Virus record (IMG/VR): IMGVR_UViG_3300049893_002289
Coordinates: 1-32,382 of that record
Reading direction: 5' to 3' (one strand)
Source of the DNA: a virus
DNA: 32,382 bases
How positions within the stretch are numbered: position 1 is the stretch's first letter; every line of letters starts with the position of its first letter. The notes under the pieces are model-generated. The model saw nothing but the letters and a program-made list of their open reading frames with translations. It did not search any database and was not told the origin of the DNA. Shown here one piece after another: positions 783-31,963 of the stretch. The translations under genes and the position numbers were made by a program.

Positions 783-971
783 TCACTTGATGTAGCTAAC
801 GCGGATTTGTTTGATTGGTTCACTCAGCGTCATTCCCCATCCAGCCTCAGCCTTCCAGTCGGCCGCCTCATAGATTGGCGCCCACTTTCCACGAAACATG
901 ACTTCGATCACGGCCAGCGGCTTAACCACTTGCTGCTGCGAACCCGGCTTGGGCGTCTTGGATTTGCTCAT
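783..971 (-). CDS. Small hypothetical protein (cassette-like ORF)
   Basis: A 62-residue protein, mildly basic, with several aromatic residues (EVMFRGKWAPIYEAADWKAEAGWG) and no recognised domain. Its ATG lies inside the right core of the preceding attC-like hairpin (CTTATGA on the minus strand), as in the next ORF where the core is GTTATGC. The stop is followed by GGCTTAAC, which resembles a cassette end core (RYYYAAC). Unlike its neighbours, its start and end cores are not good complements. Function unknown. Confidence 0.5.
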   Translation of the reverse strand: MSKSKTPKPGSQQQVVKPLAVIEVMFRGKWAPIYEAADWKAEAGWGMTLSEPIKQIRVSYIK

Positions 972-1028
972 AAGGTTTTTGGTTTGCCTGCGCCCCCGTG
1001 TGCCGGGTCGCAGAGCGCGGCGTTATGC
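968..1028 (-). other. attC-like recombination-site hairpin
   Basis: On the minus strand the element starts with GCATAAC, whose TAA is the stop of the upstream ORF, and ends with CTTATGA, which holds the start codon of the next ORF. Inside are paired arms CTGCG/CGCAG and CCC/GGG with unpaired bases. It contains the GCCGGGTCGC arm also seen in the two larger elements at 1247-1338 and 2212-2303. The short length (61 bp) and core sites fit the small end of attC sites; the right core deviates from GTTRRRY. Confidence 0.5.
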
Positions 1029-1253
1029 CCAAACAATGCTGGTCACTTGTTTGAGGTTCACGCTCACTTCGGCGTTTTCCTGTTTCACATGCGCCCACAT
1101 TTCATCCCTGTCTCCGTGATATGTGGCTTGCAGGGTTATCGAAAGCACACCGTTTTTCCCGACACGGTAGCTTGTGTTTTCCGCGTTTCCTTCACCCGGA
1201 AGCCACAGCTCTTTGATTGCTTTGCCATTTTCTTGAGTCGTGATTTGCATAAC
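1022..1253 (-). mobile_element. Putative integron-type gene cassette
   Basis: On the minus strand the unit begins GTTATGC and ends GCATAAC, exact complements. In integron cassettes the first bases (TTRRRY) are complementary to the left core of the cassette's own attC at its other end, and that relation holds here. The ORF fills the unit almost completely: its ATG is in the start core and its TAA is in the end core. Confidence 0.5.
1023..1250 (-). CDS. Small hypothetical protein (cassette ORF)
   Basis: A 75-residue protein with alternating hydrophobic and polar residues in beta-strand style (NGVLSITLQATYHGDRDEMWAH, then AEVSVNLKQVTSIVWA). No family recognised. The start codon is within the core GTTATGC and the stop TAA within GCATAAC, so the reading frame and the putative cassette have the same borders. 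There is no Shine-Dalgarno sequence, since the preceding bases belong to the attC-like hairpin. Translation may depend on the upstream ORF running through. Confidence 0.55.
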   Translation of the reverse strand: MQITTQENGKAIKELWLPGEGNAENTSYRVGKNGVLSITLQATYHGDRDEMWAHVKQENAEVSVNLKQVTSIVWA

Positions 1254-1338
1254 CAGTCACTTCAGCGAACCCGGCTTTCGCATTTCAGTTGCAAGCGACC
1301 CGTCCGGTGAGCCGGGTCGCTGAGTTCCTGCGTTAGAT
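1247..1338 (-). other. attC-like recombination-site hairpin, large
   Basis: On the minus strand the element runs from ATCTAAC (fits RYYYAAC) to GTTATGC (close to GTTRRRY). On the plus strand the arms are CAGCGAACCCGGCT (1263-1276) and AGCCGGGTCGCTG (1310-1322), perfectly complementary except for one extra A in the left arm. A single unpaired base in a long imperfect stem is a hallmark of attC sites, where it sets strand choice. The same arms with the same extra A occur at 2212-2303. Confidence 0.6.
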
Positions 1339-1538
1339 GCCTGAGCGAGCGCAGGATTTTCGCCGCCTTTTCCGACGGGTCGCTTCCACCGCCCCGCCAC
1401 TTCGCTACGATTCGTCCCGGCGATTGCTCGCAGTTGTCGCCACGCCCCGCACTCGTAGCACCATTCAGCCCAGCCACCGCAGATTATCCAAGACTTACCG
1501 TGACGGCATCTAACATCTGCGTGCTCTCGTGTTTTCAT
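1257..1538 (-). CDS. Small Cys/Trp-rich zinc-finger-like protein (cassette ORF)
   Basis: A 93-residue ORF. The informative part is residues 8-60: DVRCRHGKSWIICGGW, AEWCYECGAWR, then KRPVGKGGENP. The cysteines (C-H pair, then CxxC) suggest a small zinc-binding fold. From about residue 69 (NAGTQRPGS onward) the frame translates the attC-like hairpin, so the last 25 residues are probably a read-through tail. The start used here is the ATG at 1538, upstream of the cassette core GTTAGATGCC. No in-frame start follows the core, so insertion may have fused the ORF to a new start. Confidence 0.55.
   Translation of the reverse strand: MKTREHADVRCRHGKSWIICGGWAEWCYECGAWRQLRAIAGTNRSEVAGRWKRPVGKGGENPALAQASNAGTQRPGSPDGSLATEMRKPGSLK
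1332..1514 (-). mobile_element. Putative integron-type gene cassette
   Basis: On the minus strand the unit begins GTTAGATGCC (1514-1505) and ends GGCATCTAAC (1341-1332), a perfect 10-bp complement, matching GTTRRRY and RYYYAAC. The hairpin at 1247-1338 follows directly. It encloses most of the Cys/Trp-rich ORF. Confidence 0.55.
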
Positions 1539-1568
1539 AAGCGTTTTGCGGATGCCACTCAGCCCGGA

Positions 1569-1586
1569 GGTTCATGCGTTCGGCCC
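1569..1586. repeat. 18-bp direct repeat, copy 1
   Basis: GGTTCATGCGTTCGGCCC on the plus strand, identical to 2638-2655. It lies just downstream of the stop of the ORF 1589-1861, as copy 2 overlaps the end of the primase-helicase. The minus-strand reading (GGGCCGAACGCATGAACC) could be a worn cassette junction. Confidence 0.6.
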
Positions 1587-1588
1587 AT

Positions 1589-1861
1589 TCATTTAGTTGC
1601 GTTGAATAGTTGGGTTTCGGCGCTGATTAGTGTTTCGCCAACGCCGTAAGTTTCGACATACCACACCGAGCCGTCAGTCTTTCGGGCAATAAACGCGTAT
1701 TTCTTGTTCGAGCGCCGGGCGACGCGCTTGGGTTTTCGTTCAGCTTTTGCCCGGAGCGCCTTCATGCGGGCGCTTCGTTCTGCGGCGGACAGGCCGCCCC
1801 ACCGTGATTCGGCGGAGCGGCGCTGCATCGCGCGCATGTAATCGCTGACAGCCTTATTCAC
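1589..1861 (-). CDS. Basic small protein, possibly nucleic-acid binding
   Basis: A 90-residue protein. I chose the GTG at 1861 because GGAGG lies 6 bases upstream and it overlaps the previous stop by only 8 bases; the longer frame to 1987 would run over most of the upstream gene. The first half is helical and very basic (SAAERSARMKALRAKAERKPKRVARRSNKK). The second half looks like a compact beta domain (YAFIARKTDGSVWYVETYG). It shares a promoter with the upstream gene 1854-2084. DNA or RNA binding is inferred from charge only. Confidence 0.6.
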   Translation of the reverse strand: MNKAVSDYMRAMQRRSAESRWGGLSAAERSARMKALRAKAERKPKRVARRSNKKYAFIARKTDGSVWYVETYGVGETLISAETQLFNATK

Positions 1862-2084
1862 TGGCGGCCTCCGCGCTGTATCCGCGACCGTTCGCGGCGG
1901 TGAGGGCTTCGATGACCTCTTGCGCTTCGGCGGCGGTGTAGCGGATGGCATCTTCGCGGCTGCCGCCCATGATCTCGGCCTTGCCATCGCGCTGCCAGTT
2001 GATGTCGGTGATGTAGTCGCCCCGGCCTTCGCTGAGGATGATGGTGTCCGCTTGGCTGTTGCTGTTATTGGTCGTATTTTTCAT
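1854..2084 (-). CDS. Small hypothetical protein, first gene of a regulated pair
   Basis: A 76-residue acidic protein: a polar N-terminus (MKNTTNNSNSQAD), then GRGDYITDINWQRDGKAEIMGG, then a helical part (YTAAEAQEVIEALTAANGRG). No family recognised. An A-rich stretch rather than a clear Shine-Dalgarno sequence precedes the ATG. It lies about 45 bases below a predicted promoter with a 17-bp palindrome, so transcription of this gene and 1589-1861 is probably repressible. Confidence 0.6.
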   Translation of the reverse strand: MKNTTNNSNSQADTIILSEGRGDYITDINWQRDGKAEIMGGSREDAIRYTAAEAQEVIEALTAANGRGYSAEAASE

Positions 2085-2134
2085 TTTTTCTTTCGCCGGC
2101 TTCGGGTTACTGGCCCGTCGCTCTTTACGCGACC

Positions 2135-2162
2135 AATCTACACGACGTAGCCGCTACGTCAA
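2135..2162 (-). promoter_or_regulatory. Predicted sigma70-type promoter with palindrome in spacer
   Basis: On the minus strand TTGACG (5 of 6) is followed after 16 bases by TAGATT (4 of 6), about 50 bases upstream of the ATG at 2084. The spacer and most of the -35 are covered by a perfect palindrome (see the operator entry). Confidence 0.5.
2144..2160. promoter_or_regulatory. Palindromic operator candidate
   Basis: GACGTAGC and GCTACGTC, a perfect 8-bp inverted repeat around one central base, placed between and over the promoter boxes. A dimeric repressor bound here would block polymerase. No gene beside it encodes an obvious repressor; the helix-turn-helix protein at 13127-13366 or a host factor are candidates. 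Confidence 0.55.
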
Positions 2163-2211
2163 TAGGTTTCTGCATTTATTTTCCGATGGTTTGTAAGTCG
2201 TTGACCGGACG

Positions 2212-2303
2212 CTCGAACCACGGGTTGGAGCGAACCCGGCCGTTGCGCTCTGGTTGCAATTCATGCGTCTTTTGGGCCGGGTCGCTCACCCCGACCGTTA
2301 GGA
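2212..2303 (-). other. attC-like recombination-site hairpin, large
   Basis: On the minus strand it runs from TCCTAAC to GTTCGAG. On the plus strand the arms are GAGCGAACCCGGCC (2228-2241) and GGCCGGGTCGCTC (2275-2287), complementary except for one extra A in the left arm, at the same place as in the element at 1247-1338. The loop is about 33 bases. The left core is exactly complementary to the start of the preceding cassette (GTTAGGAGAC); the right core is degenerate. Confidence 0.6.
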
Positions 2304-2492
2304 GACTTAGTATTCATGGCAGTTGTCGCTTATGAGCGTCCCGATACACTCGCGGATTGTATGCGCTCCGAGGCTGCACCCAGTTGCCGCAAATGTTTCG
2401 GCGGCGGATGCCAGCATTTGCATTGCCTCTTTCCGTTGTTCGTTTATTGCTTCGATTTCTTTTTCAGTTTTCATCGGTTGTTGTCTCCTAAC
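2297..2492 (-). mobile_element. Putative integron-type gene cassette
   Basis: On the minus strand the unit begins GTTAGGAGAC (2492-2483) and ends GTCTCCTAAC (2306-2297), a perfect 10-bp complement. It encloses a 55-codon frame (ATG at 2474, stop at 2307) and is followed by the hairpin at 2212-2303. The best example of cassette architecture in the window. Confidence 0.6.
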
Positions 2493-2570
2493 CATGCGCT
2501 GCACAGAACGCGGCTTCGCCGGTTCTGTTTGCGGCACATAGAAATGGTCGAGCAGCCACTTGTCTTTCAT
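2307..2570 (-). CDS. Small helical protein; two possible starts, the shorter within a cassette
   Basis: From the ATG at 2570 (GGAGA upstream) the frame gives 87 residues. Residues 15-32 (TEPAKPRSVQRMVRRQQP) translate a hairpin and a cassette core, so they are unlikely to be a conserved domain. A second ATG at 2474 with AGGAGA upstream gives 55 residues (MKTEKEIEAINEQRKEAMQMLASAAETF, given here only in part as MKTEKEIEAI), mostly one long helix ending with two cysteines. The likeliest history is a cassette ORF inserted in frame behind a short upstream ORF. The 2570 ATG overlaps the 25-codon ORF stop as ATGA. Function unknown. Confidence 0.5.
   Translation of the reverse strand: MKDKWLLDHFYVPQTEPAKPRSVQRMVRRQQPMKTEKEIEAINEQRKEAMQMLASAAETFAATGCSLGAHTIRECIGTLISDNCHEY
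2488..2541 (-). other. attC-like hairpin, partly worn
   Basis: On the minus strand CAGAACCGGC-GAA-GCCGCGTTCTG forms a stem with one unpaired C, followed by a right core GTTAGGA that opens the next cassette. The left core is not recognisable (CTATGTG). Orientation agrees with the other elements. Confidence 0.45.
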
Positions 2571-2644
2571 AGTCTTTCTCCAGCCGCGTCTGTGAGCTTC
2601 ACGTTAGCACGCCGATTCACGCTGCTGGTTGTTTGGTGGTTCAT
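2567..2644 (-). CDS. 25-residue mini-ORF linking two genes
   Basis: The ATG overlaps the primase-helicase stop (ATGA) and its own stop overlaps the next ATG (ATGA). The peptide begins MNHQTTSSVNRRAN and ends AAGERL. Its DNA includes AACGTGAAGCTCA, which recurs at the end of the zinc-finger ORF near 31676. It could be a coupling peptide or simply the translated remains of an attC-like site. Confidence 0.3.
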   Translation of the reverse strand: MNHQTTSSVNRRANVKLTDAAGERL

Positions 2645-2655
2645 GCGTTCGGCCC
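2638..2655. repeat. 18-bp direct repeat, copy 2
   Basis: GGTTCATGCGTTCGGCCC, identical to 1569-1586. It overlaps the last codons and stop of the primase-helicase gene (ending GPNA). It marks the border between the replication genes and the cassette region. Confidence 0.6.
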
Positions 2656-4758
2656 CTTTTTATAGGTCGAATCCTCCGACTTGGCAAGCTTCCCATTCGC
2701 AACCAGGAGCGGCAAAATGCGTTTGCAAGTGGCAAGAGACACGTCTTTTTTCTGTTTCGCAAGCCAAATCTCCAACCGTTTTGCAATCGCGTTTTTGCCT
2801 TCGTCGCCAGTGCAGGCGGACGTGAACTCATGTAAATTCATAGCGGCGATTTCCGCGGTTTCGTTTGGCCGGCCTGGCTTGCCGCTTTCTTTTTCCGGCT
2901 TTTCCGGCGGCGGAATCTGATTCCATTTGATTCCCTTTTTGGCGTGCTCAAGCCAGATTTCCGTTGTCCACGTGCCGTCAGGGTGGACGGCTCCAGCGCG
3001 GGTTCCGCGCTTCGCTAGCTTCAACTCAAACACGCCATTGCCGTGCGGTTTCAGGAACATGACGGCCCGCGCCCAATTGACCATCTCGCTTGAGCCAAGT
3101 CCAGCGTAAGCGTAGTCAACCGCCGTCCAGTTGGCGGTTTCCTTCGCGGACTTCGGCTTGCCCGTGTGGTGGACTCCGAAAAACACGGCGCCCGTTGATT
3201 CAAGAACCGGGTTCAATTTTTCGCGCAGGAAAATCGTCGCCTCAGTTTGCTTGTTCACGTCAATGCCCATGAAGCTTAAGGCGGGGTCAATGACGATTAT
3301 ATCCGGCCGCTCACGGTCAATGAGCCGCTGCAATCGTTCGATGAACTTGTCGCCGACGGCGCGCGTTTCCGTTTTGAAAATCAGATTCTCGCGCACTGCC
3401 TCCAAGTCATCCTCACGCCCAAACTCAGTCAACCCTTGGCCGGCAACGATGCCTTGCACGATTTCCGCAAGGTCATAATCGTCATTCTCCGCCTGGATGA
3501 TGAGCGTTTTCAATTTCCTTCCCGGCGGCGGGGCGATGCCCCAGCAAGATTTCCCGCAAGCCCACGCCACGGCGAATTCCGAAATGATGGAAGACTTGCC
3601 TATGCCTGACGGGCCGAGAAGCCAAAGAGATTTGCCACGGCAGATGTAACGCAACGATTCATTTTCACGCCAACCAATGATGCAGTTTGGGTCATTGCGC
3701 GTGTCCAATCCGCTGAGGTATTCCACCGTCAGACACTTGCCGAGTTCATCACTGGAAACTTCGGCGAGCCATTCCGTGTAAGAGCCGGCGCCGATGCGGA
3801 GTCCGAGCAATTCCTGGCGCGAACCAAAGCGGACACAATTCGGCAACCGCGAAAAGCGCGACGGGTTTTTGTTTTTGGCGTCGAACTTGAAACCGAACTC
3901 AGCAAGATAACCCTCAACGATGTTGCGCCGTTCGTCGTATTCGGCACGGGAAGCCGCATCCAGCTTTACCCACGCGTGAATTGATTTGCCGCCCGAATCA
4001 ATCAGCGCGGTGATCGGCAGCCTAGAATTTGAAAGGACGTGAAACTGCTCAACCTTTGAAATTTCGTCGGACTCAAACAGTGCATGCCGATACGATTGAA
4101 CGTCGGCGTCATGTCCGCGTCCTGGCTTGATGGGATTTACGCGGATGAAGATTCCGGTTCGCTTGGATGAACTAAAGATTCCGTTGGGATTTCCTTTGGC
4201 TGCATCCAGTTTGCGCAACCATTCCTCGCGGCTGTTAAAAGTCCCTTCACTCTCTGGAATCTCGCGGCCATCGTCATTCAGTTCTGCCGGGCAGATGCAG
4301 ACATTCTCGCCTTCGACAAAGGCGGCTCGGAGAAGTTCGCGGGCACTGTCGGCGATGGGCTTTGGCAGTTCGGCGGCATCGTGGGCCGGCGGAATTTTCG
4401 GCGGGGAAATTTTGGCGGCAGGCTTTGGCTTAGATGCATTCGGGTAGCCGCCGAGCTTTTCAGGAACGCCCGCGCCGAATCTGCGGTCTGAAATCTTCTC
4501 GCCGCGCAAATGGCCGCGCGGCTTTTCATGCTTGGCGTTCATCGCTGATTGCAGCTTGTGTTCCAGTTCGCGCTCGCTCCACGGCGGCGAACATCGAGCA
4601 TTATATTCCGCCAATAGGGCGCGGGCATCATGTTCGGGCAGGTCAAACCCCCACACGAGCGCGCACGCAACCTGAAACGTAGCGTCATGCCCGCCGCTGC
4701 CGGAAACGGCGGCGTCCATCTTCGCCACGTAGGCGCGGGCGCGGTCAAACAATGTCAT
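2641..4758 (-). CDS. Primase-helicase (primase-like domain fused to RepA-type ATPase)
   Basis: A 705-residue protein, the likely replication initiator/helicase. Residues 1-80 form a small helical domain (SPPWSERELEHKLQSA) like the helical domain beside phage primases. Residues about 200-330 look like an archaeo-eukaryotic-type primase fold (SGGKSIHAWVKLD, then NPSRFSRLPNCVR). Residues about 375-620 are a RecA-fold ATPase: Walker A GPSGIGKS at 382-389, Walker B IIVIDP with Asp491, then FFGVHHTGK as the sensor region. The C-terminal tail is linker plus a small helical domain. It acts on DNA in the cytoplasm, presumably opening the origin, for which the iteron block at 497-648 is the nearest candidate. 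The primase call is weaker than the ATPase call. Confidence 0.75.
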   Translation of the reverse strand: MTLFDRARAYVAKMDAAVSGSGGHDATFQVACALVWGFDLPEHDARALLAEYNARCSPPWSERELEHKLQSAMNAKHEKPRGHLRGEKISDRRFGAGVPEKLGGYPNASKPKPAAKISPPKIPPAHDAAELPKPIADSARELLRAAFVEGENVCICPAELNDDGREIPESEGTFNSREEWLRKLDAAKGNPNGIFSSSKRTGIFIRVNPIKPGRGHDADVQSYRHALFESDEISKVEQFHVLSNSRLPITALIDSGGKSIHAWVKLDAASRAEYDERRNIVEGYLAEFGFKFDAKNKNPSRFSRLPNCVRFGSRQELLGLRIGAGSYTEWLAEVSSDELGKCLTVEYLSGLDTRNDPNCIIGWRENESLRYICRGKSLWLLGPSGIGKSSIISEFAVAWACGKSCWGIAPPPGRKLKTLIIQAENDDYDLAEIVQGIVAGQGLTEFGREDDLEAVRENLIFKTETRAVGDKFIERLQRLIDRERPDIIVIDPALSFMGIDVNKQTEATIFLREKLNPVLESTGAVFFGVHHTGKPKSAKETANWTAVDYAYAGLGSSEMVNWARAVMFLKPHGNGVFELKLAKRGTRAGAVHPDGTWTTEIWLEHAKKGIKWNQIPPPEKPEKESGKPGRPNETAEIAAMNLHEFTSACTGDEGKNAIAKRLEIWLAKQKKDVSLATCKRILPLLVANGKLAKSEDSTYKKGPNA

Positions 4759-4761
4759 TTC

Positions 4762-5007
4762 TCAATTTCTCCCAGGGAAATCCACGGGCGGCAACTGGTC
4801 TGGATTCTCCGCCACGGCCTGCAATTTGTCCGCTGTGAATCGCATCAAAGCCGCCGCCGCCAGCGCGGCCGTCACAGTGATTTTTTCGTCAATGAAACAG
4901 ACAATCGGCTCATTATGATGCGAGTTCCAGCCGATGCAAAGCAAGGGCTGTTCGTGCGCCTCAACCGCCTTTTTCCATTGGTCGAAGATTTGATCGTTGG
5001 TTTTCAT
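4762..5007 (-). CDS. Small hypothetical protein in replication operon
   Basis: An 81-residue protein (MKTNDQIFDQWKKAVEAHEQ start, ending PPVDFPGRN) with an Ala-rich helix in the middle. It lies 3 bases before the primase-helicase start and directly after the nuclease-like gene, so it is co-transcribed. No family recognised. Confidence 0.6.
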   Translation of the reverse strand: MKTNDQIFDQWKKAVEAHEQPLLCIGWNSHHNEPIVCFIDEKITVTAALAAAALMRFTADKLQAVAENPDQLPPVDFPGRN

Positions 5008-5364
5008 TTAGATTTGCGATTCGTAGCATACGTGTTGTTTTTTGCGGTGAGGTTGATATTTCGTCGGGCCGATTTTCTGCCAGCCGTGAACAATGATTTT
5101 CCGGCTCTCTGACTTCCAGAGTTCGTGCGCTTGCAGGCTTTTGATTTTGGAAATGCGCGCCCACATATTAGAGCGCGTCGTTGACTGGACTGCAAGCGTT
5201 TCATTTCCGCGAATGGCGATGATGTCAATGAATCCGAAAAGGTCTTTGCGGATTCGCGCGAAAGGATTCCAGTGCTCGACGACCTCGGCGAGCCATCCGT
5301 CGTCACGCAGTTTTTTGAGCGAGCGTTGCGTTGGTGATTTTCCGGAAGGTTTCTTTCGCTTCAC
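5008..5364 (-). CDS. PD-(D/E)XK-like phage protein, possible nuclease
   Basis: A 118-residue basic protein. The start overlaps the methyltransferase-fragment stop (ATGA). It begins SPTQRSLKKLRDDGW and continues ARIRKDLFGFIDIIAI then ETLAVQSTT, which matches the D-x(n)-E/Q-x-K/T spacing of restriction-like nuclease cores, with Asp47 and Gln60. The usual Glu and Lys are replaced by Gln and Thr, so the active site may be variant. Such proteins are common in phage replication operons; substrate and activity are not known. Alternative: a non-catalytic DNA-binding member of the fold. Confidence 0.55.
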   Translation of the reverse strand: MKRKKPSGKSPTQRSLKKLRDDGWLAEVVEHWNPFARIRKDLFGFIDIIAIRGNETLAVQSTTRSNMWARISKIKSLQAHELWKSESRKIIVHGWQKIGPTKYQPHRKKQHVCYESQI

Positions 5365-5750
5365 AGAAGTTCTCCTTCCTCTTTATGGTTTTCGACTTGG
5401 GTGAGATTTTTCACGGCCTGCCGGTAATAGGATTCCTTCAATTCGATTCCGATTGCGCGACGGCCATTCAAGACGGCTCCGTAAGCTTCGGAGCCGACGC
5501 CCATGAAAGGAGTCAGCACGGTTTCGCCGGGATTGCTCCAAAGCACGCAAGCGCGCTCGATCACGTCGAGTTGCAATGGGTGGACGTGTTTTTCGTCGTC
5601 ATGATCCTTCGATTCCTTGAAGGCCAGCACGCGGTCAATTCGGATGTCATCCCAAAAGGCATCCGCGTAACGCCGCCAAATCCAATGTGAGAAACGATTC
5701 TTTTTTTGATCGCCCGTCATTCCCTTCAAATGTAGCAATTCGGCAGGCAT
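5361..5750 (-). pseudogene. C-terminal half of a DNA methyltransferase, truncated
   Basis: Contains the end of a beta-class N4/N6 DNA methyltransferase: HVHPLQLDVIERACVLWSNPG, then the SAM-binding motif LTPFMGVGSE, then GRRAIGIELKESYYRQAV. In this class the catalytic DPPY/SPPY motif comes before the SAM motif, and it is missing. The frame is open upstream without a clear gene start (reading AVYGEEQMPAELLHLKG) and meets the helicase fragment in another frame. In related phages as I recall them, helicase and methyltransferase halves form one long protein, so this looks like a deletion remnant that has also shifted frame. Methylation activity is unlikely. Confidence 0.6.
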
Positions 5751-6527: not shown

Positions 6528-7151
6528 TCACTTTCCGATTTTGCAGAACAGGTCAATGTAGGCGAAGTATTCCTTGGTCTGTGACTTTGTAAGTTTGTGT
6601 TCCTTGCAGAGTCTCGCCCGGTTTTTCTTCCACCAATCGAACGTCTCGCAGGTGCACCCGATATGAATGTGTCCGTGCTTGGCGTTAGTGCATGACCATA
6701 GAGTTCCGATGATGAACAGTGGAGATTCTCCCCACGTATCGCCATGCACCCACGCATTGCCATACACATGGGCATAGCCACCCACATGGGCAGTGCCACT
6801 CACATGGGCATTGCCATACACATGGGCATTGCCATACACATGGGCAGTGCCATGCACATGGGCATTGCCATACACATGGGCAGTGCCATACACATGGGCA
6901 GTGCCACCCACATAGGCAGTGCCATACACATGGGCATTGCCATACACATGGGCAGTGCCACCCACATGGGCAGTGCCATACACATGGGCAGTGCCAGACA
7001 CTGTTCCCCAGACGATTGCGCTGTCACCAATGAAGGCCGATTCATCCACTTTTGCGCTTATGTGCTTCCATCCCCCGCCATTACTGTGCTGCGACCAATC
7101 GGATTCACTCTCGCTGCCGCCAAGTTTTTTGTTGAGTTCGTCGAATGTCAT
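6528..7151 (-). CDS. Hexapeptide-repeat (left-handed beta-helix) phage protein
   Basis: A 207-residue protein with GAGGA before the ATG at 7151. Residues about 34-138 are some 17 tandem hexads of the form G-[TN]-A-H-V-[YGHS], which build a left-handed beta-helix as in hexapeptide transferases. Unlike those enzymes there is no loop or acyl-carrier site. The C-terminal domain (SPLFIIGTLWSC, then HIHIGCTCETFDWWKK, then KEYFAYIDLF) is shared by many phage proteins of this kind, as I recall them. The role is unknown; it sits among replication genes, not virion genes, so a fibre role is less likely. Confidence 0.75.
   Translation of the reverse strand: MTFDELNKKLGGSESESDWSQHSNGGGWKHISAKVDESAFIGDSAIVWGTVSGTAHVYGTAHVGGTAHVYGNAHVYGTAYVGGTAHVYGTAHVYGNAHVHGTAHVYGNAHVYGNAHVSGTAHVGGYAHVYGNAWVHGDTWGESPLFIIGTLWSCTNAKHGHIHIGCTCETFDWWKKNRARLCKEHKLTKSQTKEYFAYIDLFCKIGK
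6744..7001 (-). repeat. Tandem 18-bp repeats coding for paired hexads
   Basis: The DNA under the hexads repeats a unit close to GGCAGTGCCATACACATG (plus strand), with variants at few positions (CCATACACATGGGCATTG and CCACCCACATGGGCAGTG). Nearly identical DNA, not just protein, indicates recent slippage or recombination, so copy number is probably variable and always in frame. Confidence 0.8.
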
Positions 7152-7167
7152 TGTGTTTCCTCTGTGT

Positions 7168-8700
7168 TCAGTTTTTCGCCAGCCCGGCAATCGCCCGGCG
7201 GGCTTCGTTGAAAGTCATTTCGTGCGCCTGCGGAAATCCGCGGCGCGACAAATAGGAAACTTGTTTCGGCGTCGCCAGTCGCAAGGACTGGTTGCGAAAG
7301 TGAAGGTCAAGCAACTGCCGCGCGTGCCCGCGTCCGCGTACGGTTTCGATCTTGATCTTCGCTGCGCGCAGATACTTTTCCTGTTTCGGCGTCGGCGGTT
7401 CGCTCTCCCATTTCATCGTTGGCTCGAATTCAGCGACGGCAAAAGCATCGTTGGCGATTGCGAATTCATCGGCGGAAATGATGCGCGAAGATTTGCGCGA
7501 GTGTTCCTTCAATTCCTGCCTAAGCTTGGCTTCGCGTTGCGCCTGGACTTCGCTCGCCAGCCCTTCGAGTTCTAATTCATCCTGTTTCGCGCCAGATTTT
7601 TCGGCGGCAAGTTTTGTAATCTCCTCGGCCTCATCCTCAGACTTGGCGACGAGGTGCGCCGGCCGCGAGAGCTTGTGCTTTTCCGTCAGCCAAAGGAAAT
7701 CCAGAAGCAAAAGATTTTCCTTGAAATCGCAAACGCGCGTGCCACGCCCGACGCACTGAGAGTAAAGAGCGCGGCTGGATGTTGGCCGCAACATGGCGAC
7801 ACAATCCACGGGCGGGCAATCGTAACCCTCGGTCAGCAACATGGCATTGGATAGCAGGCTGAATTCGCCGCGCTCAAATCGCGCGAGCTTTTGCGCCCTG
7901 TCTGGCGAATCGCCGTCCGCGTGCTCTGCGTCAATTCCGGCATCGCGGCAGGCGGCAACAAATTTCTGCGATGTTGCGATGAGCGGAAGAAATGCGAGCG
8001 TGCGCCGGAATTCCGCGTGTGCTTTGATTTCCTTGGCGATGCTGGCGAGGTAAGGTTCCAGTGCGTGACCAAGCTGCGCGTCGTCAAAATCGCCGGCCGT
8101 AACCTTAACGCCGCGCAGGTCGATTTCCAGCGGCAGTGATTTGACGGCGATGGGCGAAAGGTAGCCGTCGCGGATCAAGTCAAACAGCCCGATTTCAAAC
8201 GCGACATTCTCGAAGTATTGACCGAGGTTCCGTTTATCGTTGCGGTCTGGAGTTGCCGTGACGCCGAGAACGTCCGCGTTGCCGTCGAAGTGCGCGAGAG
8301 TTTTCCGCCACGAATCAGACATGGCGTGGTGCGCTTCATCTGCGACCACGAGCGAAAAGAAATCCGACGGCCAACGATTCAACCTATCGCCCGTCATGGT
8401 CTGGACACTGCCGACAACGATGCGCGTTGATTCATCAACTCCGGCCCACTCCTCCGCTTTTTCGGTTTCCGCGCGGATTCCGGTTGCCGCGAAGATTTTT
8501 TCAACCGCCTGATATATCAATTCCGAACGATGCGCGAGAATCAGCGTGCGTTCGCCGCGTTCCGCCCGTCCTGCCGCCAGCTTGGCGAAGATGATCGTCT
8601 TGCCGGCGCCCGTCGGCAGGACGGCGAGTTGCTTGGTGAAATTCTCGAAACCGGATTCCACGGCGGCAACGCAATCGGATTGGTAGGGGCGGAGGTTCAC
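7168..8700 (-). CDS. SF2 DEAD/DEAH-type DNA helicase
   Basis: A 510-residue protein with a GTG start at 8700. Motifs are complete: LRPYQ at the N-terminus, Walker A PTGAGKT (29-35), LILAHRSELI, DEAH (121-124), GVTATPDR (146-153), and in domain 2 LLTEGYDCPPVD then QCVGRGTRV (motif VI). The last about 150 residues are a charged helical extension ending in FRNQSLRLATPKQVSYLSRRG, a short C-terminal module seen in phage UvsW/RAD25-like helicases. It probably unwinds or remodels recombination and replication intermediates together with the RecT-like and nuclease proteins upstream. Confidence 0.85.
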   Translation of the reverse strand: MNLRPYQSDCVAAVESGFENFTKQLAVLPTGAGKTIIFAKLAAGRAERGERTLILAHRSELIYQAVEKIFAATGIRAETEKAEEWAGVDESTRIVVGSVQTMTGDRLNRWPSDFFSLVVADEAHHAMSDSWRKTLAHFDGNADVLGVTATPDRNDKRNLGQYFENVAFEIGLFDLIRDGYLSPIAVKSLPLEIDLRGVKVTAGDFDDAQLGHALEPYLASIAKEIKAHAEFRRTLAFLPLIATSQKFVAACRDAGIDAEHADGDSPDRAQKLARFERGEFSLLSNAMLLTEGYDCPPVDCVAMLRPTSSRALYSQCVGRGTRVCDFKENLLLLDFLWLTEKHKLSRPAHLVAKSEDEAEEITKLAAEKSGAKQDELELEGLASEVQAQREAKLRQELKEHSRKSSRIISADEFAIANDAFAVAEFEPTMKWESEPPTPKQEKYLRAAKIKIETVRGRGHARQLLDLHFRNQSLRLATPKQVSYLSRRGFPQAHEMTFNEARRAIAGLAKN

Positions 8701-8702
8701 GG

Positions 8703-9242
8703 CTAAAACGGCTCCGTTCCTTCCGGCTTCTCGGCACGCACAGGGGCGAGCTTCGGGCGGTCAGTGTAATATACGAGCACAACGTTTTTCTTTCCCGTCG
8801 GTTTGCCTGGCGCGTCGGTTTTCTTCTGGTAAATTTCGGTGCCAACCTTGGCGTGGCACCGCAGCCCGATGGGGTCAATCCACGGCGAGTCAGCAGTTGC
8901 TCGCGTCTCGTTGAACTCGAAGCCCTTGCCGGGTTCAGGCGCGACGCCGCACGACTTCACAAAGGCCATCATCCGCCAGGCGCACTTGCTCTGGCTGCCC
9001 TTGTGTGAGTCGTCAATCATGCGGTCGAACAGCCGCGCGCCGATGCCGGGAATTCCTCCTTTCGGTTCCGACTCGTTTTTCAGGCTGCCGCCTTCAATTT
9101 CAAATTCGGCTTCGTAAAGGTCGCAGCCAGACGTTGCCGGCCCCTTGCTGAGTCCGATGTCAAAGCCGACGACGCGGAGGATGTAATCGCCGTCGGGAGC
9201 GAGTTCATAGGTTGGGGGTTTGATGTCTTGATATGTTGGCAT
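8703..9242 (-). CDS. DUF669-like phage protein, probable ssDNA-binding partner
   Basis: A 179-residue protein of the phage DUF669 type: GDYILRVVGFDIGLSKGPATSG at the start, then LYEAEFEIEG, a long middle with IGARLFDRMIDD, and KSCGVAPEPG. Members sit beside helicases and recombinases in phage genomes and are thought to bind single-stranded DNA. The A-rich leader lacks a Shine-Dalgarno sequence. The family call is by remembered pattern. Confidence 0.6.
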   Translation of the reverse strand: MPTYQDIKPPTYELAPDGDYILRVVGFDIGLSKGPATSGCDLYEAEFEIEGGSLKNESEPKGGIPGIGARLFDRMIDDSHKGSQSKCAWRMMAFVKSCGVAPEPGKGFEFNETRATADSPWIDPIGLRCHAKVGTEIYQKKTDAPGKPTGKKNVVLVYYTDRPKLAPVRAEKPEGTEPF

Positions 9243-9261
9243 GATGTTTTTGTTTTGGTTG

Positions 9262-9468
9262 TCAGTCTTTTTTCAAGTTTCGCCGCCAGATTTCAACGCC
9301 CGGTGATCCATCTTCGGCTTTGCCGTCCACGGCGATGAAATCAATTCCGCCGCGCTCAAGGTCGCGCACGATGTTCGCCAGAATCCACGCCTCGGCTGGA
9401 ATTCTGCAACCGTGGGTCAGTTGTTCGTAGCCAAGTTCTTTGGCCGACTGTTCGCTGATGATCTTCAT
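9262..9468 (-). CDS. Small hypothetical protein
   Basis: A 68-residue protein (starts MKIISEQSAKELGYEQL; core RIPAEAWILANIVRDLERGG; ends IDFIAVDGKAEDGSPGVEIW plus a basic tail). The ATG overlaps the nuclease stop. Alpha-beta character, no family recognised. Its place between nuclease and DUF669-like gene suggests a recombination accessory role. Confidence 0.6.
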   Translation of the reverse strand: MKIISEQSAKELGYEQLTHGCRIPAEAWILANIVRDLERGGIDFIAVDGKAEDGSPGVEIWRRNLKKD

Positions 9469-10592
9469 TTTGTTTTGTCCTTTACGAGCGAAAGCGTGGA
9501 GGGTTTGCGCTGAACTATCTCGCCCAACTTGGTTTCAACCTCGCGTTCCGCGGTCTTTTCCTTCATCGCGTGAAAAGCGGCGTAAGCCCCGGCCAGCGAT
9601 GAGAGTCTGATTTCGCAGGCGTCGAGAAATTCTTTCTGCGGCAGCCCGCACTTTTGGAACGCCTCGGTCACGCTGGCAATGATGCGGTTCCCTTTTCGCT
9701 CTTGCAGTTTGAATCCGGCAATCTCCTTGCCTTGCTTGGTCGCAAGTTGTTCCGCGCGAAACTCGGCAGCATCGCAAAAATCCTGCAATGACCTCGCCAC
9801 CATCAGCACCGCGCCCATGAGCTTGCCGTCTTCGATTTCAGAAGTGTGCGCCCCGCGTTCAAGCCATGCCTGGAATTGCTTGAAAGCCTCGCCATCAACG
9901 CCCTTGCGCGAGGAGGCGATTTGTTCCGCCGCATTGTTTTTGATTGGGCACGTCAAATCCTTATTGCGCTGGCACCACGAACAGTAATCAGATTCTCGGC
10001 ACGGGACGCTTTCATCGTTCGCCTCGCGTCGGATTTTTTCAACGATGGCGCGGGCGGTTTCCTCGGTGAACTCGTAGCGTTGCACTTTGCGCGACTCACC
10101 AAACATCACATGGCATCGGATTGTTTGGTCGCCGCCATAAATCGCGGAGATGTTTGTTTCCTGAAACCTTCCAAGCGCGTAGCCGGCCATTTGCGGTTCG
10201 TAATCGAACCATCGCCATTTGAAATCGAAAATTTCCGCACCGCAGGCGGCATCGCACGTGCCTCCATTCGGGAAATACGGCTCGAAATTTTCATCAAGCG
10301 GATTCAGGTTATGCTCAACCAGCAGCAAGAATTCATACATCGGCGAGTTCAGCTTGATATATGCCGCCGCCCACTGGACGGCATCGCGCGATTTCTCGTC
10401 CAGCTTGGCGAGCCTGCCGCCGTCTTGGAATTGTTCCTCCATTTCGACATCTGAAAATTTCCCGGCCAAAATCGCCGCCAGATATTCGTGCCGGATTGTT
10501 CCGTCATTGGCGAATTCGCCGGCATCCGCCGGAATGAACCTCGGCGACTTGGCGAGCATCGGCAGCAGGGATGGTCGGAGTGTCGGAATCAT
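9465..10592 (-). CDS. RecB/Cas4-like PD-(D/E)XK nuclease with Cys cluster
   Basis: A 375-residue protein. His36 (GTIRHEYL), Asp114 (GGTCDAA), then IFDFKW with Asp123 and Lys125, and YEPQMAGYALG form the RecB-type catalytic set. Four cysteines (198, 204, 207, 215 in VPCRESDYCSWCQRNKDLTC) resemble the iron-sulphur ligands of Cas4 and AddB, though all four lie together here. The C-terminal third is helical and charged. The gene follows the RecT-like gene with no real gap, the usual pairing of exonuclease and annealing protein (as RecE/RecT or exo/beta). It should resect double-strand ends to provide single strands for annealing. The DUF2800 family is my best name. Confidence 0.7.
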   Translation of the reverse strand: MIPTLRPSLLPMLAKSPRFIPADAGEFANDGTIRHEYLAAILAGKFSDVEMEEQFQDGGRLAKLDEKSRDAVQWAAAYIKLNSPMYEFLLLVEHNLNPLDENFEPYFPNGGTCDAACGAEIFDFKWRWFDYEPQMAGYALGRFQETNISAIYGGDQTIRCHVMFGESRKVQRYEFTEETARAIVEKIRREANDESVPCRESDYCSWCQRNKDLTCPIKNNAAEQIASSRKGVDGEAFKQFQAWLERGAHTSEIEDGKLMGAVLMVARSLQDFCDAAEFRAEQLATKQGKEIAGFKLQERKGNRIIASVTEAFQKCGLPQKEFLDACEIRLSSLAGAYAAFHAMKEKTAEREVETKLGEIVQRKPSTLSLVKDKTK

Positions 10593-28453: not shown

Positions 28454-29325
28454 AGTATTTTTTCCAGGGCCGACAGTATTTCATCCGGCGTGGCGATGCC
28501 GTCCAGCAATCCGGACGGCGCATCGCACGCCAGCCACGTCTCGCCGGTCGCGGTGGTTTCCAGTGTCATGCCTGGGCGTCCGCGCGCGATGGCTTCTTTG
28601 AATAACCCAAAATACATCTGCACTTCTTTTTCCAGTCGCGCGCGAATCTCGCCCTCACTGAGTCCACTCATTGCCTTGTCGCGCGATGAGGCGACGGTAA
28701 TCGTGTCAATTCCGGCGTTTCGCTCGGCGCGCTCGTCGCGCGGCATCCTGGCGATGACGCCGATGCTGCCCACGATGCTGCCGCGGGTTGCATATATCTC
28801 ATTGCACTGAGATGAAATGAGGTAGGCAAGCGATGCGCCGACGCCTTCAATGCAGGCAATCATCGGCTTGCTTTTCATCGCGTGCATTTTGTCGGAAAGC
28901 TCAAAGCCACCAAGCACGCTACCGCCAGGAGAATCAATCAACAGTTGCACGGCCTTGATATCTTCATCCTCCATCGCGGCCTCGATGGAGTTGCCGATTT
29001 TCTCGCAGCTTGTCGCGAAGCTCGAAAGGTTCGACATCATGCCCGCGCGCGGAAGGATTGGGCCGGCAACGGCAATTTGCGCAACGCCGCCTCGGTTGGC
29101 ATAAAACGGTTCACCGGCGGCGTTGCTTGGTTCGCCGACATATTTGACCGCGCCGAGGTATTGCGGATGAAATTCCGGCGAGAGTTTCGCGGCCTGGCGC
29201 GCATCAACAATGGTTTCCCCGGCGACATGGCGCGCGAAAATATCGGCGATGAAATCAAGGGCGCGGTCTTCAATCATCCACGGTGTTCCGTGGACAATGT
29301 TGGAAATATGTTTCAGGCTTTTCAT
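28450..29325 (-). CDS. S49/SppA-type prohead protease
   Basis: A 291-residue protein whose ATG overlaps the portal stop (ATGA). It has the ClpP/crotonase fold of the S49 family: LLIDSPGGSVLGG (129-140), the nucleophile in EGVGASLAYLISS with Ser165, then GSIVGSIGVIARM, and Lys217 (SSRDKAMSG) as candidate general base. This is the lambda gpC type, which cleaves scaffold and portal or capsid ends during maturation. The scaffold in lambda is the C-terminus of gpC; here it is a separate gene next door. Confidence 0.8.
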   Translation of the reverse strand: MKSLKHISNIVHGTPWMIEDRALDFIADIFARHVAGETIVDARQAAKLSPEFHPQYLGAVKYVGEPSNAAGEPFYANRGGVAQIAVAGPILPRAGMMSNLSSFATSCEKIGNSIEAAMEDEDIKAVQLLIDSPGGSVLGGFELSDKMHAMKSKPMIACIEGVGASLAYLISSQCNEIYATRGSIVGSIGVIARMPRDERAERNAGIDTITVASSRDKAMSGLSEGEIRARLEKEVQMYFGLFKEAIARGRPGMTLETTATGETWLACDAPSGLLDGIATPDEILSALEKIL

Positions 29326-30782
29326 TTGCTTTTGCCTTTTGGCTTTTCTTCCTGCTCGCCGGTTTCAGGAGTTTCGGGCATCGGGTTTTTCATCGGTCGC
29401 ACGCGGTTGATGTCAACGCCGGCCGTGTTGCACAAGTCCTGCAAATATTTTTCCTCGCGCACGCGCTGTTCCATGCTCTCCTGCCAGTCGTCGCCAGAGC
29501 GGCCGAACCATTCGGAGAATGTCATTCCGCCTTCTTCGAGTGCCTGCAAATCCGCTTTCGTGTCGCGCCCGTTGTCAACGGTGATGTCGCGCGGGCGCTG
29601 GTGCTCGAATCGAAACCAGTCGGCGGGCAGCGGTGGAATCATGCCGAGCTTGGCGAGCTTGGCGATTGCATAGGCGTGCTTTCGCATCGCGATTTTCTCC
29701 GCGATTTCCTGCAACCCTTCAATCGCCCGCTTTGCCTGCGCGACGCGAAGCCGGATGTTGGCGCCGCCAAGTGCCTCTGGATTGTAGAACTCAATCGGCC
29801 AGCCCAACGCTTCAAAAGCGCCGCGCAGAATCTCGAATGAGAAATCCATCGAGTTGACGCTTGGCCGGTTGTCGTTTGGAATTTCGATCTTGTTGTTTTC
29901 TCCAACACGAACATAGCGGATTGTTCCGCCGTCAAGCCGCTCAATCGCCGGGGCGCCATTCGCCGCCTCGCTCGTGCCGCCGAAAATCGGCGAGGTCGAA
30001 TTCGGCGGCGTGTCCGTGTGGTCAACCATCACGATGCTTGACACTGACTTGATGGCGACCTTGGTGAAGTCGCGGATGTCAAACAGGTCGGCCACGTCCA
30101 GGATGACGGGCGCAAGCCACGGAATGCCGCGCGTCTGGTCGCTGAATTTCGGGCGGAATGTCAGGCAAAAGTTTTTCGCCGGAAGTTCAACGTAGGAATC
30201 CGCACTCGGCTCGTTGAACACGCGATAGGCAATGGGTCGCCCGTAGTTGTCAACACGAACGCCATTTATAACCCATGTTTCCTCCGGCTTGGATGGATGC
30301 CAGCCGACGCGATGCGCGGGAATGGATTGGAATTGCGGATAACCCTCGCCGTTGTCCACCAAAAGGAAGCTTGCGTCGCCGTCACGAATTACGGAAACCA
30401 AATCATTCACAAGCGAAGTGCGGAAGTCGTATGGATGCCCGCGCACTTCGGAGATTTTGTCCCACTCATAAAGCGCAGACTCCATCGCTTCTCCCCATTT
30501 CTTGTCTGCGCCGCGATACTGGACATTAAACCCGCAGCCCACGGCATAGCTTGCCATCTGATGGATTGCGCCGCCAATAGGGCCGAAGTTTTCGCAGAGA
30601 TAACGCGAAGCGGAAAGTAATTCGCGGTGCCCCCAGTCGCCTATATTGTCGCGCGTGTCGCCGTCGCTGCGTGGAATATGCCGGCGCTGGCGGCGCGCCT
30701 GATAGTTCGTCGCCTCGTAAAAGGATTGCGTGCCGCCGAACATCCGGCGGCGTTCTGTGATTTTGTATGGAGCTTGCGGCAT
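29322..30782 (-). CDS. Portal protein (lambda gpB-like)
   Basis: A 486-residue protein. The ATG at 30782 overlaps the stop of the connector gene (TGATG); the longer frame would run through that gene. The start MPQAPYKITERRRMFGGTQS then YEATNYQARRQRR and LLSASRYLCENFGPIGGAIH, VGCGFNVQYR match lambda-like portals. Later GLQEIAEKIAMRKHAYAIAK and EQRVREEKYLQDLCNTAGVD form the stem and crown region. It makes the dodecameric ring through which DNA enters the head. Confidence 0.8.
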   Translation of the reverse strand: MPQAPYKITERRRMFGGTQSFYEATNYQARRQRRHIPRSDGDTRDNIGDWGHRELLSASRYLCENFGPIGGAIHQMASYAVGCGFNVQYRGADKKWGEAMESALYEWDKISEVRGHPYDFRTSLVNDLVSVIRDGDASFLLVDNGEGYPQFQSIPAHRVGWHPSKPEETWVINGVRVDNYGRPIAYRVFNEPSADSYVELPAKNFCLTFRPKFSDQTRGIPWLAPVILDVADLFDIRDFTKVAIKSVSSIVMVDHTDTPPNSTSPIFGGTSEAANGAPAIERLDGGTIRYVRVGENNKIEIPNDNRPSVNSMDFSFEILRGAFEALGWPIEFYNPEALGGANIRLRVAQAKRAIEGLQEIAEKIAMRKHAYAIAKLAKLGMIPPLPADWFRFEHQRPRDITVDNGRDTKADLQALEEGGMTFSEWFGRSGDDWQESMEQRVREEKYLQDLCNTAGVDINRVRPMKNPMPETPETGEQEEKPKGKSK

Positions 30783-31042
30783 CAGTAGCGAGGTTGGTTG
30801 AAGTCCACGGAGGCGCGTGTGACGTTCGCGCCGCCGTAGGCGCTTGGGTTGAGTTCGCGCAATGCCCACTGACACCAGGCGCAGACGTGCGATGGAGGCG
30901 AGTCAATCAGGCGGGAAACGGAGGAGCCGGAAGATGACCAAGCGGAAATGTTGCCGCCGTTAGAAAGCGCGGCTTTCGCGGCGGCAAACAATTCGAGAAC
31001 CTCCGGCTCAGTCCAGCCGGTTACGTCGCGCATGAGTGCCAT
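30782..31042 (-). CDS. gpW-like head-tail connector
   Basis: An 86-residue protein (starts MALMRDVTGWTEPEVLELFA; then AKAALSNGGNISAWSSSGSS; VSRLIDSPP), helix then a two-strand hairpin, as in lambda gpW, which lies between terminase and portal. The last third is longer than in gpW and holds two cysteines (HVCAWCQW). Its identity rests on place and size. The start is uncertain between ATG at 31042 and 31033. Confidence 0.5.
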   Translation of the reverse strand: MALMRDVTGWTEPEVLELFAAAKAALSNGGNISAWSSSGSSVSRLIDSPPSHVCAWCQWALRELNPSAYGGANVTRASVDFNQPRY

Positions 31043-31115: not shown

Positions 31116-31352
31116 TCAACTGTTAGCCATTATGAATTCACGCAGCTCGGCTTCAGTGCAGCGCAGCTCGCTTCCGATCTTTCCTAGTGGGCATTTGTCT
31201 GCACATGAGCAGGCACACCGATTCACTCCGCTGGAGCGCATTGAGCCATCTGGTTTGCATCCGCTTAGTCGCTGTTTAGCTATGGCTAACAAGTCGGTGC
31301 AGCCAATGCCGGTTGGCGCTGGCGGTGTTATTGGGGTCTCTTTATACGGCAT
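31116..31352 (-). CDS. Small Cys-rich protein, cassette-like region
   Basis: A 78-residue protein with AAAGG about 8 bases before the ATG. It begins MPYKETPITPPAPTGIGC and carries a cysteine cluster (NRCACSCADKCPLGK; ELRCTEAELREF), probably metal-binding. Codons 16-24 and the end lie across inverted cores GTTAGCCAT and ATGGCTAAC, so it may be a cassette ORF fused to an upstream start. It overlaps the preceding gene by 11 bases. Function unknown. Confidence 0.55.
   Translation of the reverse strand: MPYKETPITPPAPTGIGCTDLLAIAKQRLSGCKPDGSMRSSGVNRCACSCADKCPLGKIGSELRCTEAELREFIMANS
31122..31290 (-). mobile_element. Possible gene cassette
   Basis: On the minus strand the unit begins GTTAGCCAT (31290-31282) and ends ATGGCTAAC (31130-31122), a perfect 9-bp complement in the same orientation as the left-end cassettes. 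The hairpins on either side are weak (AATAACA to TTGTTAGCC upstream), so support is lower. Confidence 0.35.
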
Positions 31353-31662
31353 GGCTGACCTTTCCGTTCTGCGGACATTGCCGCCACAGTCCGGGCATCA
31401 TGCGCTGGGTCGTCTCAGTGCATTCCCAGTAGTTCTCTACCCATCCGTCATGTTCCGCCGGTTGGCCGGTCGCTTGCTCCCAGTCATCATCGGTTGCCAC
31501 TTCGCTGCCGTCATCGCAAAGTAGTAGTTTCACCGGAGTCTGAGTGCCGCCTTCCATCCACTCCCACCATCCGCCACAGTGAGGCCGGGCGCGACGCCAC
31601 CGCCGAACCATACGCTGCAAGGAGCGGACAGAGCGCGTCTGTCGTGAAGTCGTGGCCGTCAT
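31342..31662 (-). CDS. Small Trp/Cys-rich protein
   Basis: A 106-residue protein; the ATG at 31662 overlaps the zinc-finger stop (ATGA) and has AAGGA upstream. It has a basic start (RQTRSVRSLQRMVRRWRRAR), then HCGGWWEWMEGGTQTPVKLL, an acidic centre and ENYWECTETTQRMMPGLWRQ with Cys. Few paired cysteines remain, so metal binding is uncertain. It lies between terminase and connector with other small genes. Function unknown. Confidence 0.5.
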   Translation of the reverse strand: MTATTSRQTRSVRSLQRMVRRWRRARPHCGGWWEWMEGGTQTPVKLLLCDDGSEVATDDDWEQATGQPAEHDGWVENYWECTETTQRMMPGLWRQCPQNGKVSHAV

Positions 31663-31695
31663 TGCTGGCCGTCCTTGAGCTTCACGTTCTGGCGC
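31643..31695 (-). other. attC-like element, worn
   Basis: On the minus strand it starts GCGCCAGAAC (31695-31686) and has arms CGTGAAG (31686-31680) and CTTCACG (31649-31643). Thirteen bases (AACGTGAAGCTCA) are shared with 2593-2605. No proper right core follows. Confidence 0.35.
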
Positions 31696-31922
31696 TTTGC
31701 CTTTAGACAGACTTTGCATGTCGCGAGGCGGCGGTTGGTGGTTGATTTGATGGAATCGGGCTGCTCCCAGTTTGACCACGGATGACCATTCCATCCATCT
31801 CGCCCACACGCGGTAATTCCCCAATTGGCCCGAAGGTGACGCGCCACAACCGCGGGCCGCAGACGAACCGCAGGTTCGCTGCGGCCCGATGCCCGCTTGT
31901 TAATCTGGACGTTCTTTTTCAT
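31659..31922 (-). CDS. Small zinc-finger protein, part of a cassette-like unit
   Basis: An 87-residue ORF. The conserved part is ITACGRDGWNG, then STTNRRLATCKVCLKAK, a pattern of small phage zinc-ribbon proteins (ACG then TCxxCL). Residues 7-24 (INKRASGRSEPAVRLRP) translate a perfect hairpin and are probably not conserved. A GTG at 31847 within the core GTTGTGG is an alternative start, giving 62 residues. Terminase lies upstream. Role unknown. Confidence 0.6.
   Translation of the reverse strand: MKKNVQINKRASGRSEPAVRLRPAVVARHLRANWGITACGRDGWNGHPWSNWEQPDSIKSTTNRRLATCKVCLKAKRQNVKLKDGQQ
31686..31850 (-). mobile_element. Putative gene cassette with zinc-finger ORF
   Basis: On the minus strand the unit starts GTTGTGGCGC and ends GCGCCAGAAC, complementary at 9 of 10 bases. 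As in the cassette at 1022-1253, a start codon (GTG) lies within the start core. A strong hairpin precedes it. Confidence 0.4.
31844..31905 (-). other. attC-like hairpin with one unpaired A
   Basis: Arms CGGGCCGCAG-A-CGAACC (31853-31869) and GGTTCG-CTGCGGCCCG (31873-31888) pair completely except for the single A at 31863. Flanking cores on the minus strand are GATTAAC and GTTGTGG. The stem lies inside an ORF, as with the left-end elements. Confidence 0.5.
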
Positions 31923-31963
31923 TCGCGCAGGTCGCTGGGCTTGGTATCGTTTGGCGTCTTCAT
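31919..31963 (-). CDS. 14-residue mini-ORF between terminase and zinc-finger gene
   Basis: Encodes MKTPNDTKPSDLRE; the TGA overlaps the next ATG (ATGA). Probably a leader for coupling or a leftover end, not a stable protein. Confidence 0.25.
   Translation of the reverse strand: MKTPNDTKPSDLRE

Follow-up and report, generated by a model that had tools for sequence, protein, structure and literature searches.

attC sites and cassette genes of the window

The integron integrase excises and inserts gene cassettes in the form of single-stranded hairpins. Here, we describe attC sites, and the open reading frames (ORFs) that run through them, in a phage contig, the IMG/VR virus record IMGVR_UViG_3300049893_002289 (positions 1 to 32,382; hereafter the window, meaning the whole stretch of 32,382 nucleotides (nt) analysed). 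Seven attC sites were identified, all on the plus strand and clustered, with four in 1.7 kb at the left and three in 0.7 kb near the right end. They have RYYYAAC / GTTRRRY-type ends, unpaired bases on one arm and a central loop, the anatomy by which attC sites are recognised.

The first site is at 920-1028 (R'' GCTTAAC, R' GTTATGC, G^TT at 1022), with the 5' arm CTGCGAACCCGGC at positions 936-948, and its minus-strand loop holds the ATG of ORF 783-971, as ATGA. The original prediction, made from the letters of the window, had correctly placed an element here but drew its limits too narrowly, at 968-1028. The second site (1247-1338; R'' GCATAAC, R' GTTAGAT, G^TT at 1332) and the third (2212-2303; R'' CTCGAAC, R' GTTAGGA, G^TT at 2297; ATGA in the minus-strand loop) are exactly as predicted, with long arms paired apart from a single extra A and RYYYAAC/GTTRRRY-type ends. 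The fourth element is also real, although the small hairpin proposed for it at 2488-2541 is not the site, which covers 2486-2609 (R'' TCCTAAC, R' GTTAGCA, G^TT at 2603; ATGA in the minus-strand loop) and in which the arm CACAGAACGCGG pairs with CCGCGTCTGTG. Near the right end, attC 5 (31284-31372) lies between the end of a probable terminase gene and the portal gene, attC 6 is at 31602-31692, and attC 7 (31843-31955) is directly downstream of the probable terminase end; the minus-strand loops of attC 6 and attC 7 contain ATGA. The extra A of the window sites is always on the plus-strand 5' arm, as is a second unpaired base, and in 2212-2303 this second feature is a short bulge on the arm carrying the extra A. 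The placement of these unpaired bases on one arm matches known attC sites. Near-copies of attC 2 are present in two other contigs (L127 and L138), one of them ending at G^TT.

A scan for cores and arms with one extra base recovers 920-1028 and 1247-1338. In 30 dinucleotide shuffles the same scan gave, per window, about 0.07 hairpins with 11 pairs, and hairpins with at least 12 pairs never appeared, thus hairpins of this type with attC cores are not a chance expectation. Folding the minus strand as single-stranded DNA, the check suggested along with the prediction, placed unpaired bases where they are expected for attC, and folding energy alone gave a modest gain over shuffled sequences for some sites (z of -1.3 to -3.6). 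A covariance model (R1) was built from 36 sites, among them the four left window sites, which score 72, 80.9, 84.8 and 56.9 bits (attC 1 to 4, respectively) on the plus strand and at most 18 bits on the minus strand. The three right-end sites, absent from the training of R1, score 34.6, 38.2 and 21.4 bits (attC 5 to 7, the last being the lowest of the seven), and the rest of the window reaches at most 12 bits, save for weak reverse-strand matches on the sites themselves. Double-sided changes preserve pairing in 12 of the 24 pairs of the R1 alignment, and none of 500 shuffles was as high. An Rfam scan returned no match and a tRNA search found none.

ORFs on the minus strand, against attC, occupy both clusters. 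Based on codon models trained solely on genes outside arrays, support is good for the ORF of 62 amino acids at 783-971 that starts in the attC 1 loop (+18.5 bits), the ORF of 75 amino acids at 1023-1250 (+24.7 bits), and the ORF of 76 amino acids at 1854-2084 (+44 bits, the best in the array), and weak for the other window ORFs. ORF 1023-1250 takes up its whole cassette, with its ATG inside R'' of attC 2 and its stop codon TAA supplied by the first three cassette bases after G^TT. An ORF of 87 amino acids (2307-2570, +11 bits) starts from the ATGA in attC 4 and has a second ATG at 2474 after R'', the antisense of which (GTTAGGAG) resembles a ribosome-binding site. In the right cluster, another ORF of 87 amino acids (31659-31922, 5 bits) begins at the attC 7 ATGA and ends with the TGA contained in the attC 6 ATGA, and is thus chained to an ORF of about 106 amino acids (31342-31662) that starts from the latter ATGA and stops in attC 5, in the frame of a 160-amino-acid ORF (31342-31824).

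An attC family shared with bacterial integrons

The exact pattern GCGAACCCGGC-N-GCCGGGTCGC was sought in public collections and was found in at least 117 bacterial contig stretches and 36 viral contig stretches. Many matches have a loop of about 35 nt and the common outline gCCTAACCATGCGCTGCA, arms, TGAGCTTGGGTCGTTAGGC; chance matches also occur in unrelated DNA of high GC content that lacks attC ends, such as that of actinobacteria. The true family is found mostly in metagenome-assembled genomes (MAGs) of Verrucomicrobiota and Planctomycetota, the others being from cyanobacteria, Nitrospira and Acidobacteriota. The bacterial loci are same-strand arrays of up to ten sites, as detected with R1. 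An integron integrase above the curated cut-off is encoded in 18 of the 39 bacterial genomes carrying the family, and in several of these genomes the array starts within about 1-2 kb of it. Together with the anatomy, the co-varying pairs and the break of identity at G^TT (see below), these arrays beside IntI support the predicted attC identity, and they are not what ordinary repetitive extragenic palindromic (REP) elements, named in advance as the outcome that would overturn it, look like: REP elements are short palindromes scattered over host chromosomes, with no tie to a site-specific recombinase.

The family is present in thirty viral (IMG/VR) records, the window included. An integron integrase adjoins the array in four of them (G040, G048, G050 and G058), and further viral contigs also yielded integrases. 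Those of G040 and G058 are identical. Phage gene matches accompany the integrase in G058 (terminase and major head protein), G050 (terminase) and G048 (portal and terminase). All four viral integrases fall inside the IntI clade in a phylogenetic tree, with the G058 protein placed with IntI and apart from Xer, and the alignment of the latter protein to the solved IntI4 structure 2a3v (E 5e-54) spans its length. The G050 integrase (40413-41480) groups with that of an 8 kb Verrucomicrobiota MAG contig (L175, 100/100 support), which may itself be viral. Contig L143 resembles a bacterial fragment and was excluded from the counts of loops, codon direction, chaining and phase given below.

Where identity between sites ends

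When attC sites from different viral contigs are aligned in register, the alignments of 40 of 127 pairs end at the last T of G^TT, which makes it the most frequent end point. At least 30 nt upstream are shared by five of the pairs, and none of the five continues 15 nt beyond G^TT. The window itself provides one example: the stretch 2175-2299, which includes most of attC 3, is 95-96% identical over about 125 nt to another contig (L132), with identity stopping exactly at the last T of GTT (2299). Judged from these comparisons, the stop at G^TT is what integron recombination predicts, and the alignments point to strand exchange at this position; cassettes have presumably been excised and inserted in the window phage as well. 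The cyanobacteria Leptolyngbya and Nodosilinea (L012 2939-3033 and L087 5860-5954) have in common a stretch of at least 499 nt, made up of cassette and attC, at 93% identity; it ends 3 nt past the G of G^TT and appears to reflect a recent cassette exchange.

Cassette genes run against attC in phages of this family

In integron theory, attC recombination orients cassettes so that their genes point away from the integrase and are expressed from the Pc promoter. The genes of the viral arrays are turned the other way, which the original prediction overlooked. Based on codon scores, 73 of 76 viral cassettes are antisense to attC and two are sense, whereas bacterial cassettes of the same attC family, analysed by the same test, are sense in 48 of 68 cases and antisense in six. 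Training on pooled ORFs gave the same trend, and the bacterial model applied to viruses called 55 cassettes antisense and nine sense. ORF length was rejected as a measure of the coding strand, as it is uninformative in GC-rich arrays, and codon scores and homology were used instead. The 74 antisense ORFs of the viral arrays gave matches to 12 Pfam and 44 PHROG families, including MT-A70 and C5 methyltransferases, PAPS_reduct, DUF1643, DUF7448 and Lar, whereas 70 length-matched sense ORFs from viral arrays had no Pfam or PHROG family match.

In three of the viral records with an adjoining integrase (G058, G050 and G048), the integrase gene belongs to the phage operon, and the cassette genes are oriented towards it. 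The phage cassette genes start in their own attC in 44 of 68 cases and stop inside the neighbouring attC in 42 of 68. The canonical arrangement, with the gene codirectional with attC and attC outside the coding frame, is therefore not the one seen in the phages of this family. One contig (L142) encodes between its attC clusters a DnaB-like helicase (2960-5476), probably a phage gene between arrays, with LAGLIDADG domain and terminase-like profile matches in the middle of the protein; the insertion is possibly an intein.

Start and stop codons in the loop and a fixed junction phase

A stop/start overlap such as ATGA is present on the antisense strand of 63 of 97 viral attC loops, compared with 19 of 96 bacterial loops. 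An ORF that extends from the ATG of its own attC through the whole cassette body and into the next attC is found in 31 of 76 viral cassettes and in none of 68 bacterial cassettes, and removal of 1 or 2 nt from the body lowers the viral count to 7 and 5, respectively. The junction phase is identical in all 31 of these full-length crossing ORFs. More generally, among frames open for at least 240 nt that cross 95 viral junctions, 55 of 63 are in a single phase, the other two phases having 3 and 5. The TGA of the loop ATGA is in the same frame as the crossing ORFs in 48 of 61 cases.

The number of chains that end at the ATGA of the neighbour is 16, and 15.2 are expected after neighbours are swapped at random. 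Specific pairing of neighbouring cassettes was rejected on this basis, since the permutation shows no difference; that permuted neighbours do as well as the observed ones indicates that the cassettes are interchangeable. In a subgroup of phage attC loops (L198 11702-11806, 8494-8598 and similar sites), ATGAGCGC pairs with GCGCTCAT, so that the start codon itself is in the stem.

The phage contig and its gene order

The contig is that of a phage, as shown by phage gene matches, which include portal, tape measure, primase and helicase, and by a gene order common to IMG/VR relatives. A primase/helicase gene (2641-4758, PHROG 2597, E 2e-46) adjoins the left array and a portal protein is encoded near the right end (29322-30875, PHROG 21, E 4e-35), both on the minus strand. 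On the same strand, the contig ends cut a MazG-like pyrophosphatase gene on the left (2-361, PHROG 3301, E 9e-15) and, on the right, what is probably the C-terminal part of a terminase (31968-32381). The latter has no direct family match and was identified through 34% identity over 88 amino acids to a syntenic ORF of a related viral record (L002), the full length of which is a terminase large subunit (PHROG 15, E 3e-74). Circular closure of the contig was rejected, given that its ends lie inside these two genes.

Three viral records with a related primase (L002-L004, 44-46% identical) keep much of the window gene order, and in L002 the synteny includes terminase and portal. A query with the portal protein found no relative in viral contigs, and the DNA of the arrays had no match in the phage collection. 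The host is probably a Verrucomicrobiota-like bacterium. Short repeats (TTTTGAACCA and TGGTTCAAAA) occur in both orientations upstream of the left array, at about 494-653 of the window. In addition, a 31-nt direct repeat (84%) with TTCATGCGTTCGGCCC is found at 1566-1596 and 2635-2665; one copy encodes the C-terminus of the primase, and the repeat core GTTCGGC resembles an R' site.

A proposed phage-adapted cassette and its alternatives

We consider it highly probable that the window element consists of genuine integron gene cassettes, with seven attC sites, in a tailed phage, and that they are of a phage-adapted form. The broader proposal, which we hold to be probable with less assurance, is that some phages keep a cassette pool of their own, in which genes are reversed relative to attC, the hairpin is translated, its tip serves as a stop and the next start, a single junction phase is used, and shuffled arrays always form a coupled operon.

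In the proposed mechanism, an integron integrase supplied by the host, by a co-infecting phage or by the missing part of the window genome would act on the cassettes at G^TT, cutting and joining them there. Turning the cassette gene round relative to attC would let it be read with the surrounding phage operon; if an array sits in an operon transcribed against attC, only reversed genes would be expressed. The attC hairpin would thereby become coding, its loop holding the start of its own gene and often the stop of the neighbour (ATGA). Coding through attC may let ribosomes open the hairpin, and the loop ATGA would pass them to the next gene by termination and reinitiation. With a fixed junction phase, the chain would terminate and restart correctly in any cassette order, and both expression of the cassettes and a benefit to the phage would be anticipated.

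Several observations weigh against this interpretation. Several window ORFs have low codon scores (31659-31922 and 2307-2570 among them), the rule is not universal across junctions, a junction-crossing ORF is seen in just two window cassettes, and the window cassette proteins have no Pfam or PHROG family match. For two of these proteins relatives were sought in viral contigs, and none was found. No attC was found in L002-L004, which points to an accessory array rather than a core feature; the existence of primase relatives without attC suggests that the arrays are accessory insertions. Finally, a search of the window contig found no integron integrase, the intI gene that defines a complete integron. 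The window therefore has the make-up of a cluster of attC sites lacking an integron integrase (CALIN), with at least two close attC sites and no integron integrase nearby, on a contig that is incomplete. This agrees with the predicted cassettes without a visible integrase as far as the contig goes, but does not extend to the whole phage: as the contig ends inside the probable terminase and MazG-like genes, an integrase may sit in the missing part.

It is conceivable, though in our view unlikely, that the antisense genes are real and their reversal is neutral, with arrays inserted either way, operon-readable cassettes surviving, and the frame a by-product of the conserved attC. Phage genes flanking the arrays within 6 kb are antisense to attC in 160 cases and sense in 34, thus selection for the direction of the operon would be enough to account for orientation, and Virus Rctr41k and phage TJE1 deal with the same problem through arrays that are sense. 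However, the attC sequence itself leaves the three phases about equally open (70, 76 and 87 of 95 junctions), yet the long frames are in one phase by 55 to 8, and the phase preference at bacterial junctions is weak (9, 2 and 1).

It is much harder to see the arrays as an ordinary phage CALIN, in which bacterial cassettes captured by chance are decaying and the antisense ORFs arise artefactually from high GC content. ORFs of at least 75 amino acids are equally numerous on both strands of the viral arrays (104 vs 104), and canonical phage CALINs exist, with TJE1 carrying attC sites and genes in the usual sense order (PMC9892861). Yet protein-family matches and coding-like codon use are confined to the antisense ORFs, the same test places the genes of bacterial arrays of this family on the sense strand, and decay would not yield a frame convention; this very unlikely explanation is already contradicted by the homology and phase tests. 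Least credible of all is a phage or host repeat that resembles attC (REP-like, a terminator or a regulatory hairpin), for although RNA folds of the sites are stable and near-identical arms recur in several sites in a repeat-like manner, the family forms same-strand arrays beside IntI genes, the arms co-vary, identity breaks at G^TT, and R1 recognises the published attC sites of TJE1 (22.5 bits at 1016-1075).

If the phage-adapted cassette is as proposed, it would represent a second design for an exchangeable gene array, in which nearly all genes face the other way, the recombination site contains start and stop codons and the junctions share one phase, and would explain how phages shuffle genes within a tightly packed operon. 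The cargo of the arrays, which includes DNA methyltransferases, a restriction-alleviation-like protein and PAPS-reductase-like proteins, suggests evasion of host defence as one use. The frame rule can be checked on any phage collection.

Comparison with known systems

The chromosomal integrons of Verrucomicrobiota, Planctomycetota and other groups share the attC family with the window, including the arms and mostly the loop length, and have arrays beside IntI. In contrast to the phage arrays, their cassette genes are sense (48 to 6) and the antisense loop ATGA is far rarer. Start/stop overlaps also give translational coupling in ATGA-coupled phage gene modules, but in the window family the overlap is inside a recombination hairpin and the frame appears to be standardised across exchangeable units.

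Virus Rctr41k (L211, KX853513.1 1-12000) is likewise a phage contig with an IntI-like gene and an attC array: an integrase gene at 4680-5678, annotated as xerD, is followed by attC-like sites at 6641-10101. Here attC, genes and integrase are codirectional, so that the cassettes are sense and it is the integrase that is turned instead. The sense cassettes include a methyltransferase, and this virus is absent from the table of complete integrons given by Qi et al.

Integrons and CALINs have been described in phages, and five of six phage attC sites tested recombined with IntI1/attI1 (Qi et al. 2023, PMC9892861). The CALINs of virulent phages (TJE1, PH101 and P12002L) resemble the window in being attC clusters without an integrase and in carrying DNA methyltransferases among their cargo (PMC9892861). 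The same paper describes the cassettes of TJE1 and PH101 as lying in the usual orientation (PMC9892861), and our own check confirmed that the TJE1 genes are sense, unlike those of the window-family phages, which are antisense, start in the loop and share a common junction frame. Literature searches, within open-access limits, found no report of reversed or phase-locked cassettes. Phage CALINs are thus already known, and, as judged from sequence comparison, the part that appears to be new is a phage cassette with a reversed gene and a standard frame.

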